Of a DNA stretch of 64,000 nucleotides, positions 16,905 to 45,860 are shown piece by piece. Below the pieces are notes generated by a model. The model was not told the origin of the DNA and ran no database searches. It saw nothing but the letters and a program-made list of their open reading frames with translations. A program made the translations under genes and the position numbers. The DNA is from Alphaproteobacteria bacterium (GTDB lineage Bacteria; Pseudomonadota; Alphaproteobacteria; Micropepsales; Micropepsaceae), in NCBI GenBank assembly GCA_025350465.1, contig JANXXU010000015.1, forward strand, positions 1 through 64,000. The letters are read 5' to 3'. Position 1 is the first letter of the stretch. Every line of letters starts with the position of its first letter.

Positions 16905-17060
16905 ACGGACTCTACCTTTCCTCCCCCGCTCTTCGCGGGGGAGGTGGCGGAGCGCAGCGACGACGGAGGGGGGAAGTCTGGTGCGCGCCACTTCCCCCTC
17001 CGCCCTCGGCTTCGCCTCGTGCACCTCCCCCGCAACCGCGGGGGAGGAAAGGAGGATTCT
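16905..17060. repeat. Dispersed GC-rich intergenic repeat upstream of groES
   Basis: Contains CTCCCCCGCTCTTCGCGGGGGAG followed by a copy of the CTTCCCCCTCCGCCCTCGG...CACCTCCCCCGC...GGGGGAGG element, also seen at 229-295. The whole block forms a large palindrome and could terminate transcription from the redoxin gene before the groES promoter. Confidence 0.75.
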
Positions 17061-42432: not shown

Positions 42433-43359
42433 TCAGGCTATTGCCTTCGCTGGTGGGGCGCGTCCTGGCGCCGGTTGTGCTTCGGTCCACACGATAATTT
42501 GCAGTTTTCCTGCGTAATCTTCAACCAGCGCGCTGCAGCTTTCGACCCAATCGCCGTCATTACAGTAAAGAATTCCGCCCATCTGACGTATTTCGGCCTT
42601 GTGGATGTGGCCGCAAACGACGCCGTCGAGCCTGCGCCGCTGGGCCTCGCGAACAACAGCGTTCTCGAAGCAATTAATGTATTCGACGGCGTTCTTGACC
42701 TGGTCTTTGAGCCAGCGCGAGAGGGACCAATAAGGCAGGCCAAATCTCCGCCGTGCCGCCGCCACGACATCGTTAAGCTTGAGTGCCGTCGCATAGGCCC
42801 AATCGCCTAGATAAGCGAGCCATTTCGCATACATGACCACGCCGTCGAAGTGATCGCCGTGGATGACCAGCAGGCGCCGTCCGTCTGCTGTCTCGTGGAC
42901 CGCCTCGCCAATGACTTCGACGCCCGCAAAGCTGTGACCCGTGTAAGGGCGCAACGCCTCGTCGTGGTTGCCGGGCACGTAGATCACGCGCGTGCCGGCG
43001 CGTGCCTTACGCAGAATCTCGTCGATGACGGCGTTGTGCGTCGGGCGCCAATACCAAACACGCGTAAGGCGCCAACCGTCGATGATGTCGCCGACCAGGT
43101 ACAGCATATCGCTTTCGTTCGAGCGTAGAAAGTCGAGCAGCAACTCGGCCTTACAACCGCGCGTGCCCAGGTGGATATCGGAGATCCAGATCGTGCGATG
43201 CCGTTGCGGGCGGGGCGGGAGAGGCAGAGGGCGATTGGGGGCCGTGGGCCGCCGAGTGGCGACGAGAGTTGCGCCGAATAAAGGCAGGGTGAAACGCACT
43301 AACGCCGTTTCCAATCTCGTCACGCGACCAACTCCGTCAACGATACAAATCAGCTCCAT
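42433..43359 (-). CDS. Metallophosphoesterase (UDP-2,3-diacylglucosamine diphosphatase-like)
   Basis: A 308-residue calcineurin-like enzyme. The five metal motifs are DIHLGTRGC (Asp61, His63), LVGDIIDGW (Asp91), VPGNHDE, VIHGDHFDG and CGHIHKAE. The GTRGCKAELLLDFL start is typical of LpxH-like bacterial enzymes. It lies upstream of the family 4 glycosyltransferase gene, so a role in glycolipid assembly is likely. ATG 43359 chosen; a TTG at 43434 is in frame. Confidence 0.88.
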   Translation of the reverse strand: MELICIVDGVGRVTRLETALVRFTLPLFGATLVATRRPTAPNRPLPLPPRPQRHRTIWISDIHLGTRGCKAELLLDFLRSNESDMLYLVGDIIDGWRLTRVWYWRPTHNAVIDEILRKARAGTRVIYVPGNHDEALRPYTGHSFAGVEVIGEAVHETADGRRLLVIHGDHFDGVVMYAKWLAYLGDWAYATALKLNDVVAAARRRFGLPYWSLSRWLKDQVKNAVEYINCFENAVVREAQRRRLDGVVCGHIHKAEIRQMGGILYCNDGDWVESCSALVEDYAGKLQIIVWTEAQPAPGRAPPAKAIA

Positions 43360-43453
43360 CCCGGTGCGACTTGAGGTGCCAGTCGCCGGTGAATCTTTGA
43401 TGGCGATTGCGTGATTTATTTGTGGGATCGCCAATTATACTGCGTCTCTAGCG

Positions 43454-43468: not shown

Positions 43469-43690
43469 CCAAGTATTCGCACCGCCCGATATGGAGCATG
43501 AATCAAGGGCGGGGTCGGGAACCGGCGATTCTGACAGGCGCTGCCGATGCTCGGTTTTTGCAGCGCAGCAAGATGCTACGGCACCGCTAGGCCTTCCGAG
43601 TGCGCCCATATTTCCCCATAAAATCAGTGGAATATCTGAGCAAAAACAAGGGAGTGCGGTCGTTTCTCGCAATGGGCGAGTAAACGTTTA
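43469..43690. other. Intergenic stretch before the small RNA
   Basis: Roughly 220 bases with no recognised gene. The TGAGCAAAAACAAGGGAG segment near 43640 has a ribosome-site look, but the frame after it is very short. The stretch separates the metallophosphoesterase from the candidate small RNA. Confidence 0.45.
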
Positions 43691-43694
43691 ACAC

Positions 43695-43723
43695 TTGATT
43701 TATTCCGACAGCGAGTCCATATT
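43695..43723 (+). promoter_or_regulatory. Promoter of the candidate alpha-r8-like small RNA
   Basis: TTGATT at 43695-43700 and CATATT at 43718-43723 are spaced by 17 bases. The predicted start point is about 43730, just before the first hairpin of the small RNA. Confidence 0.55.
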
Positions 43724-43729
43724 TGTGCA

Positions 43730-43827
43730 GCGCGGTAGGACGCTTGCGTTCTGCCCCGCAGCCCTTCCTGGGCGTTTCCTCCCTAAACTTGGGCCGCTTG
43801 GCAACCGCCTCGCGGCCCCTTTCTTTT
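43730..43827 (+). ncRNA. Candidate small RNA of the alpha-r8 (MmgR-like) family
   Basis: The transcript would be about 98 nt. It shows a first hairpin (GGTAGGACGC/GCGTTCTGCC, 43734-43755), a small hairpin GCCC/GGGC (43761-43773), the single-stranded motif TTTCCTCCCT at 43775-43784, and a Rho-independent terminator (GGGCCGC/GCGGCCC, 43791-43818, then CTTTCTTTT). The conserved TTTCCTCCCT loop is recalled as the hallmark of alpha-r8 RNAs such as MmgR. It can pair with Shine-Dalgarno sequences. In Sinorhizobium MmgR acts on polyhydroxybutyrate storage; the targets here are unknown. Confidence 0.65.
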
Positions 43828-43839
43828 CCGAGACGGATT

Positions 43840-44385
43840 CTAGGTCCAGGCGCCTGCCGCAGGCGGCTGCGTTTGCGTGCCGCCGTTGAGTGCGCGCTGC
43901 ATCATGACGATGTCGACCCAGCGGCCCAGCTTGTAGCCGACCCCGCGCACGATGCCGACATGAGCAAACCCGGCTCGAGCATGGGTGGCGATCGAAGCGG
44001 TGTTTTGCGAGTCGCCTATGACCGCCACAATTTGGCGCACGCCCTTCGCCTCGCAGCGCGGGATCAGGGCTGCCAAGAGTTCGAGACCTACGCCGCGACC
44101 GCGCCGGTCGTCGCGCACGTAGACGGAGTCTTCCACGCTATAGCGGTAGCCGCTGCGGGGACGAAAGGGCGACGCATAGACGTAGCCGACGACTTCGCCT
44201 GCCTCTTCGGCCGCAAGCCAAGGCAGGCCGTTTGCAACGATGCCGCGCCATTTTTCTTCGAACGCGCCGATCGCCGGCGGCGTTTCCTCGAAGGTGCCAA
44301 AACCATTTGCGACGTAATGTGCGTAGATGGCGTGAAGGTTGGGAATGTCGTGTTCGACGGCGTTGCGGATTAATCGCACGCTCAC
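43840..44385 (-). CDS. GNAT acetyltransferase (phosphinothricin-acetyltransferase-like)
   Basis: A 181-residue acetyltransferase resembling Pat/YncA. It has IRNAVEHDIPNLHAIYAHYV, TFEETPP and the acetyl-CoA motif VRDDRRGRGVGLELLAALI. YKLGRWVDIVMMQRAL near the C-terminus is typical. The GTG start overlaps the formylglutamate amidohydrolase stop (GTGA). Substrate could be methionine sulfoximine-like or an amino acid; not determinable here. Confidence 0.9.
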   Translation of the reverse strand: MSVRLIRNAVEHDIPNLHAIYAHYVANGFGTFEETPPAIGAFEEKWRGIVANGLPWLAAEEAGEVVGYVYASPFRPRSGYRYSVEDSVYVRDDRRGRGVGLELLAALIPRCEAKGVRQIVAVIGDSQNTASIATHARAGFAHVGIVRGVGYKLGRWVDIVMMQRALNGGTQTQPPAAGAWT

Positions 44386-45311
44386 TGCGCAGCTTGACCC
44401 GTCGCGGCCAGGGGCGGGCGCAAGAAGCGCCAGTCGATCTCACCAAGGGCGCGGACGAGCGTCGTCACGGCCTGCGAAATTCGTTTGAGGCCCGCCATGC
44501 GCTCGATGCGCTCCTCATCCATATAAAGCGCGCGATTTATCTCGATTTGCAGCGCATGGAGACCAAGCGCCGGTCGTCCATAATGCTCGGTCGAGAAGCC
44601 GCCGGCATAAGGATTGTTGCGCACGACCGCAAAGCTCTGCAGCGCCAGCGCTCGCTCGATGATGTCGGTCAAGCGACGCGCGCAAGCAGTCCCGAAGCGA
44701 TCGCCGAGCACGACGTCGGGACGCGTCGATCCGATATCCTGATCGAGCGGACCGCCGACAGAGGGCATCGAGTGGCAATCGACGAGCACCGCGCAGCCGA
44801 ACTGTTTGTGCGTCGCTTCGATCAAGCCGCGCAGTCGCGCGTGATAGGGTTTGTAATAGGTGTCGATGCGCCACTGCGCCTCGCTAAACGAAATCTTCTT
44901 GGCGTAGATCTCGGCGCCGTCGCGCACGACGCGGGCGATCGTGCCGAGACCCGCCGAAACGCGGGGGCTGCGGCTGTTGACGAAGCCGGGCAGCGGTGCG
45001 TCGAACATCGCGGGATCCAATTCGTAAGGCTCGCGATTCGGATCGACATAGGCGCGGGGAAAATGGGCCTTGATCAGCGGTGCGCCGAGGGCCGGTGCGG
45101 CGGCGAAAATCTCGTCGACGAAGCTGTCTTCCGAGCGGCGAATCGAGACGGTGTCGAGCCGCGACGATTGCAGAAAGGCCTTGTTGTAAACGCGGCCGGA
45201 ATGGGGGGAGGCAAAAACGAAAGGGAGGGTCTGATTGGCTGGCGCCAAGACCTCGAACGGCGGATCGATCAGCGACCCGCCACGCCTCTCTACGCCGCCA
45301 ACGAGCCTCAC
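44382..45311 (-). CDS. N-formylglutamate amidohydrolase-like protein
   Basis: A 309-residue FGase-family hydrolase. Conserved motifs are FASPHSGRVY, SEDSFVDEIF, PRAYVDPNREPYELD, VDCHSMPS (metal His/Asp) and RNNPYAGGF. It would cleave N-formylglutamate at the end of the HutG route of histidine degradation. No other hut genes are in the window. The GTG start at 45311 is within a near-CtrA site region. Overlaps the next gene, the GNAT, by 4 bases. Confidence 0.9.
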   Translation of the reverse strand: MRLVGGVERRGGSLIDPPFEVLAPANQTLPFVFASPHSGRVYNKAFLQSSRLDTVSIRRSEDSFVDEIFAAAPALGAPLIKAHFPRAYVDPNREPYELDPAMFDAPLPGFVNSRSPRVSAGLGTIARVVRDGAEIYAKKISFSEAQWRIDTYYKPYHARLRGLIEATHKQFGCAVLVDCHSMPSVGGPLDQDIGSTRPDVVLGDRFGTACARRLTDIIERALALQSFAVVRNNPYAGGFSTEHYGRPALGLHALQIEINRALYMDEERIERMAGLKRISQAVTTLVRALGEIDWRFLRPPLAATGQAAQ

Positions 45312-45497: not shown

Positions 45498-45860
45498 ATG
45501 GCGAAAATTCTGCTCGCCGAAGACGACGATGCAATGCGCCGCTTTCTGTCGAGCGCACTTGAGAAAGCCGGTCACGAAGTCGCTTCGTTCGCGCAAGGCG
45601 ACGAGGCCTTCGACTGCCTGCAAACCGGCGTCGTGTTCGATTTGCTGCTGACGGATATCGTCATGCCGGTCATGGACGGGATCGAGCTGGCACGCCGTGT
45701 TTCGGAATCGACGCCGAAGATGAAAATCATGTTCATCACGGGTTTTGCCGCCGTGGCGCTGAACCCGAAGAGCAACGCACCGAAAGACGCAAAGGTTTTG
45801 TCCAAGCCGTTTCATTTGCGCGAGCTCGTGCAAGAGGTCGAACGGCTGCTCGCCGCCTAG
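45498..45860 (+). CDS. cpdR: Response regulator CpdR
   Basis: A 120-residue single receiver domain. The acidic pocket is EDDDAM, the phospho-acceptor Asp53 (LLTDIVMP), Thr81 (ITGFAAVAL) and Lys103 (LSKPF). The ITGFAAVAL segment and the short length are typical of CpdR, the alphaproteobacterial adaptor that, when unphosphorylated, directs ClpXP to the cell pole to degrade regulators such as PdeA. The AAGGA site is 5 bases before the ATG. A near-CtrA site lies upstream. Confidence 0.93.
   Translation: MAKILLAEDDDAMRRFLSSALEKAGHEVASFAQGDEAFDCLQTGVVFDLLLTDIVMPVMDGIELARRVSESTPKMKIMFITGFAAVALNPKSNAPKDAKVLSKPFHLRELVQEVERLLAA

Follow-up and report, generated by a model that had tools for sequence, protein, structure and literature searches.

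The region between a metallophosphoesterase gene and a GNAT acetyltransferase gene in the window (the whole 64,000-nucleotide stretch of DNA that was analysed) very probably encodes a trans-acting small RNA of the alpha-r8/MmgR family (RF00519) that acts by seed pairing. It is well supported that this RNA is a further member of an already known family, from an uncultured lineage. The only fresh point of our analysis is a PhaR-type operator that is found family-wide at alpha-r8 promoters. The features of the locus are collected in Table 1.

Table 1. Features of the alpha-r8 locus and its neighbours, with positions in the window
Feature	Position	Strand	Evidence and remarks
Metallophosphoesterase gene, divergent, start uncertain	42433–43434	−	Pfam PF00149; upstream neighbour in much of the alpha-r8 family
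Distal PhaR-type box GGTTTTTGCAGCGCAGCAAGA, core TGCAGCGCAGCA	43553–43573	+	20/21 S. meliloti consensus positions
Conserved block AACGTTTAACACTTGATTTATTCC (AACGTTTAACRCTTGATTTATT) holding the −35 hexamer	43683–43706	+	Nearly invariant in nine genus members
−35 hexamer TTGATT	43695–43700	+	Sequence; conserved in genus
−10 hexamer CATATT	43718–43723	+	Sequence; kept in 8/9 genus members, CATTAT in the ninth
Proximal PhaR-type box TATTTGTGCAGCGCGGTAGGA over −10 and start site	43720–43740	+	20/21 consensus positions
Predicted alpha-r8 small RNA, ~98 nt	43730–43827	+	Promoter spacing, fold (z = −5.0), Rfam match; start ~43729–43731
5′ hairpin SL1	43730–43759	+	Outside Rfam model; compensatory changes in genus at 6 of 11 pairs
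RF00519 (suhB/mmgR) match	43754–43833	+	59.3 bits
Small hairpin SL2, GCCC-UUCCU-GGGC	43761–43773	+	Rfam match and fold; pairs invariant in genus
Unpaired seed UUUCCUCCCU (DNA TTTCCTCCCT), anti-Shine-Dalgarno type	43775–43784	+	Fold; invariant in genus
Terminator hairpin GGGCCGC-UU-GGC-AACC-GCC-UC-GCGGCCC, then CUUUCUUUU to 43827	43791–43818	+	Rfam match, fold, conservation
GNAT acetyltransferase gene, oriented towards the RNA gene (convergent)	43840–44385	−	Pfam PF13420 and PF00583
N-formylglutamate amidohydrolase (FGase) gene, alpha-r8 syntenic marker	44382–45311	−	Pfam PF05013, 257.6 bits; conserved order
cpdR, cell-cycle response regulator	45498–45860	+	NF046022, 190.5 bits (cut-off 180); conserved order

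A cmscan search of the whole window returned a match to RF00519, described in Rfam as 'Makes More Granules Regulator RNA', that covers the full model (1–77) with E = 1.1e-9. The score lies well above the gathering cut-off of 41 bits, which confirms the family membership proposed in an earlier note on this DNA. The elements named in that note lie where it had placed them, but the family match reaches about 6 nt beyond the end of the region it had delimited. RF00519 occurs once in the 4.06 Mb genome and was matched in 91 of 120 relatives, in 87 of them above the cut-off. The published features of alpha-r8 RNAs are a 10-mer, a weak hairpin that precedes it, a terminator and a neighbouring FGase gene (PMC12559287). 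Sequence, fold and profile matches reveal all of these at the locus. The 10-mer UUUCCUCCCU, which had been named as the family hallmark, is identical to the published alpha-r8 motif (PMC12559287). The genus members are recorded as Alphaproteobacteria MAGs, consistent with a family range of Alphaproteobacteria outside Rickettsiales. The gene is presumably transcribed.

RNAfold assigns the predicted RNA a free energy of −48.6 kcal/mol, compared with −32.5 ± 3.2 kcal/mol for shuffled sequences (z = −5.0). It forms the three hairpins listed in Table 1 and leaves the seed single-stranded between SL2 and the terminator. The earlier note had counted two hairpins; these and the unpaired seed were recovered, but the count omits the terminator hairpin as a third. 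The strong terminator that it had described is present and conserved in the nine genus members, and the hairpin together with the following CUUUCUUUU qualifies as Rho-independent by folding and conservation. An alignment of the nine genus members shows hardly any change in the seed, the ACTT linker and the terminator. Pairing in SL1 is kept at 97% in the genus, with compensatory changes at 6 of the 11 pairs. For the whole structure, covariation amounts to 0.201 compared with 0.134 in shuffles, a value that none of 500 shuffles reached, and the signal is lost when the pairing partners are slid. In the majority of 90 loci, the 5′ leader folds better than shuffled sequences do (median z −2.6).

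The synteny with FGase and then cpdR is the arrangement published for the alpha-r8 family. Going rightwards from the RNA, a single GNAT gene precedes FGase. According to tblastn searches of fetched loci, the order in the genus is metallophosphoesterase–RNA–GNAT–FGase–cpdR, except that the metallophosphoesterase gene was not seen in all members and GNAT is missing from one. Zavarzinia loci carry RNA–GNAT–FGase, and in many other relatives, which have no GNAT gene, FGase directly adjoins the RNA (tblastn). The genus, Zavarzinia and a few other lineages carry the GNAT gene as an insertion that separates the RNA from FGase; the copy in the window resembles ArsN1/phosphinothricin acetyltransferases, with scores below the curated cut-offs.

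The promoter proposed in the earlier note, TTGATT and CATATT with a spacer of 17 nt, was found at the given positions and is conserved in the nine genus members. A generic scan of the window reported no promoter, because only 8 of the 12 consensus bases match. It also reported no terminator, because an internal loop breaks the stem, a feature that the scan disallows. Both elements are backed by genus conservation instead. Within the genus, the block that holds the −35 hexamer is conserved well past the normal extent of a promoter. It contains TTAA-N7-TTTA, which we take to be close to a CtrA site, and a further regulator possibly acts at this block.

The occurrence of PhaR-type boxes was assessed with the consensus WNWD2NYGCRNYGCRNH2WNW, which was determined in S. 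meliloti. The predicted box in the promoter is conserved in the genus. Among 89 alpha-r8 loci of the family, 72 carry a box in their promoter/start region; shuffles gave means of 5.4–7.3, and a distant control region had a box in 7 loci. A non-redundant set gave a similar picture (56 of 66). Seven of eight control regions hold a box in 5–17 of the 89 loci. In the eighth, which spans −202 to −120 relative to the seed, an unexpected 45 of 89 loci had a box, and this enrichment uncovered the second, distal box. Eight of the nine genus members carry it, about 165 bp upstream and between −199 and −228 relative to the seed. Its consensus among genus members, TGCGNTGCAGCA, stands out amid poorly conserved DNA and agrees with the PhaR footprint consensus TGCRNYGCASMA of Bradyrhizobium (PMC6201568). 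Where a divergent metallophosphoesterase gene is the neighbour, 29 of 32 loci have the distal box; where this gene is absent, 27 of 53 do. Because it is present in both situations, it may serve the RNA gene, the metallophosphoesterase gene, or both. A single box match is not rare by itself, as the window holds 14 matches at ≤1 mismatch compared with 8.9 expected, and it is therefore conservation that carries the PhaR argument. For the proximal box, which in part coincides with the 5′ stem of SL1, constraint on the RNA accounts for some of this conservation; the distal box is clear of the stem.

In S. meliloti, AniA/PhaR is a repressor of mmgR that binds its promoter (PMC12542648, PMC7143759), and binding by PhaR was efficient in gel shifts (PMC12542648). 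This is the only alpha-r8 gene for which PhaR control is shown in accessible papers. In the accessible literature we found no mention of PhaR boxes as a general feature of alpha-r8 promoters, though earlier notice is possible. The genome analysed here carries genes for PhaR (157 bits) and Hfq (108 bits) as well as five phasin-domain genes, the best of which has two PhaR boxes (21/21 and 20/21 positions), as do phasin genes of S. meliloti. With one genome taken per family, alpha-r8 and PhaR occur together in 21 families, alpha-r8 only in 3, PhaR only in 5 and neither in 20 (Fisher p = 2e-6); shared genome reduction may contribute to this co-occurrence. Judging from the sequence, it seems fairly likely that PhaR controls the predicted alpha-r8 promoter. 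The boxes strengthen the connection to polyhydroxybutyrate (PHB) control that had been suggested earlier, but the link stays indirect, via MmgR of S. meliloti.

In the proposed mechanism, RNA polymerase would start at about 43730 and stop past the hairpin that ends at 43818. The resulting RNA of about 98 nt would present UUUCCUCCCU in single-stranded form between SL2 and the terminator. Together with Hfq, it would pair with GGGAGGA-type ribosome-binding sites and prevent a set of mRNAs from being translated, probably those for uptake and catabolism and possibly those for phasins (storage-granule proteins). PhaR most likely represses the promoter via the start-site box, perhaps with the help of the second box about 165 bp upstream, and polymer granules would titrate PhaR away, releasing the alpha-r8 promoter. 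Masking of ribosome sites by the seed is supported by analogy with a relative for which experiments have established this mode: SisA of Caulobacter represses by pairing of its seed with ribosome-binding sites, proven by compensatory mutation (PMC12559287). A wider proposal is that PhaR control is ancestral and near-universal for alpha-r8, that both boxes let PhaR clamp or loop the promoter, and that granule formation releases the RNA across many alphaproteobacterial orders. We regard this proposal as quite possible, though with slightly more doubt than belief. If it is true, alpha-r8 would be the RNA output arm of a PHB-sensing system and no rhizobial peculiarity. Boxes at most of the alpha-r8 promoters examined are a useful addition, as they connect PHB control in rhizobia with feast-famine control in Caulobacter, formerly separate lines. 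They also raise the question of PhaR gating of alpha-r8 RNAs outside rhizobia.

GGGAGGA followed by an ATG after 3–9 nt occurs 42 times, compared with 7 occurrences for the reversed pattern. With repeat copies and short frames removed, the predicted candidate targets comprise a family-5 solute-binding protein, a PQQ dehydrogenase, an AMP-binding enzyme, LemA, Yip1, an AurF-like protein and Flp pilin, which we treat as leads only. Results for phasin and TonB starts were mixed. At one phasin start (L177), a duplex of −23.7 kcal/mol with the seed region is predicted, stronger than at all 70 background starts from the window. Only this one of the five phasin starts pairs unusually well; the others are ordinary. 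Since the seed resembles an anti-Shine-Dalgarno sequence, complementarity to ribosome sites is partly generic.

It is conceivable, if rather unlikely, that the RNA is a real alpha-r8 member with no wiring to PHB or PhaR, namely a nearly constitutive repressor of nutrient uptake similar to SisA, and that the boxes reflect 5′ stem sequence and chance. SisA does repress TonB receptors and is nearly constitutive (PMC12559287). Matches to the PhaR-type box are also common in the G+C-rich DNA of the window, and the complements found before the genes for the solute-binding protein, the quinoprotein dehydrogenase, the AMP-binding enzyme and Flp pilin would suit such a repressor. However, the distal box is not part of the RNA, and 8 of 9 genus members have one at a comparable position amid DNA that is not conserved. 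PhaR control is further favoured by the co-occurrence of PhaR and alpha-r8 across families and by the binding of S. meliloti PhaR to the mmgR promoter in vitro (PMC12542648).

The existence of the RNA gene itself leaves less room for other readings. The hairpin at 43791–43818 might be a mere shared terminator of the convergent GNAT gene, with the upstream similarity being a decaying relic. The stop codon of this gene (43840) is just past the hairpin, which places the stem just downstream of the gene on the minus strand. Nevertheless, across nine species promoter and seed hardly vary and compensatory changes preserve SL1, and the RNA is intact in relatives without the GNAT gene. This explanation is thus highly improbable. 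A short protein encoded by the plus-strand frame 43695–43889 or 43723–44373 is more improbable still. Although these frames are open over 64 and 216 amino acids, the 64-aa frame has no Pfam match. Across the genus, the loops of SL1 and SL2 vary in length by one to four bases, which breaks any frame and thereby excludes a conserved one.

The RNA shares with MmgR (SmelC689) of Sinorhizobium meliloti the family RF00519, the single copy and the seed motif. MmgR is reported to be 77 nt long, whereas the RNA described here is predicted to measure about 98 nt and to have a long hairpin at its 5′ end. The PhaR/AniA box of the mmgR promoter was proven by gel shift (PMC12542648), while ours is predicted by sequence; on the other hand, a second, distal box is seen here. 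An arrangement like ours, with the PhaR box between −10 and start, is found at the SMa1961 promoter of S. meliloti (PMC12542648), which in contrast drives a protein gene (PHB depolymerase). In Caulobacter crescentus, the family is represented by four copies, SisA-D, compared with one here. They carry the identical 10-mer, and sisA too is a neighbour of an FGase gene (PMC12559287). Upstream regions of SisA-D are reported to lack a common motif, whereas a PhaR-type box is present in our case. Cuckoo RNAs (CCUCCUCCC loop RNAs) also carry a motif of the anti-Shine-Dalgarno type, but in hairpin loops (PMC3927594), whereas the seed here lies in a linker and the Rfam scan gave RF00519.

The search for mRNAs pairing through GGGAGG that had been recommended earlier delivered the leads named above, but most exact complements of the seed lie in a repeat. 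The complement AGGGAGGAAA occurs at 28 genome sites, compared with 2 for the reversed pattern and with 1–6 such 10-mers in genus and family mates. We rejected the 28 sites as a large regulon and did not count them as targets, because most are located in an interspersed palindromic repeat, away from start codons. The repeat family, approximately CCTCCCCCGC-N5-GCGAGGGAGGAAAG, is found on other contigs (e.g. L119, L126, L130, L136), and many copies have one arm that is complementary to all 10 nt of the alpha-r8 seed. If transcribed, these copies could soak up the RNA, but coincidence is more likely than a sponge role. No obvious small-RNA gene was seen at four non-repeat seed-complement sites inspected individually, and thus no counterpart of the CrfA-like sponge of Caulobacter was identified at these sites. 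Related palindromes that lack the exact 10-mer are present at 263–286 and 16920–17047 of the window and in some genus mates.

Two observations concern the relatives. In relative G103, three tandem alpha-r8 copies are found within about 520 bp (L061, 2829–3347, minus strand). The entries CP051228.1 ('Mesoflavibacter sp.', L072) and JANQQD010000274.1 ('Anaerolineae bacterium', L088) both carry typical alphaproteobacterial alpha-r8 loci, and their public names therefore look wrong.
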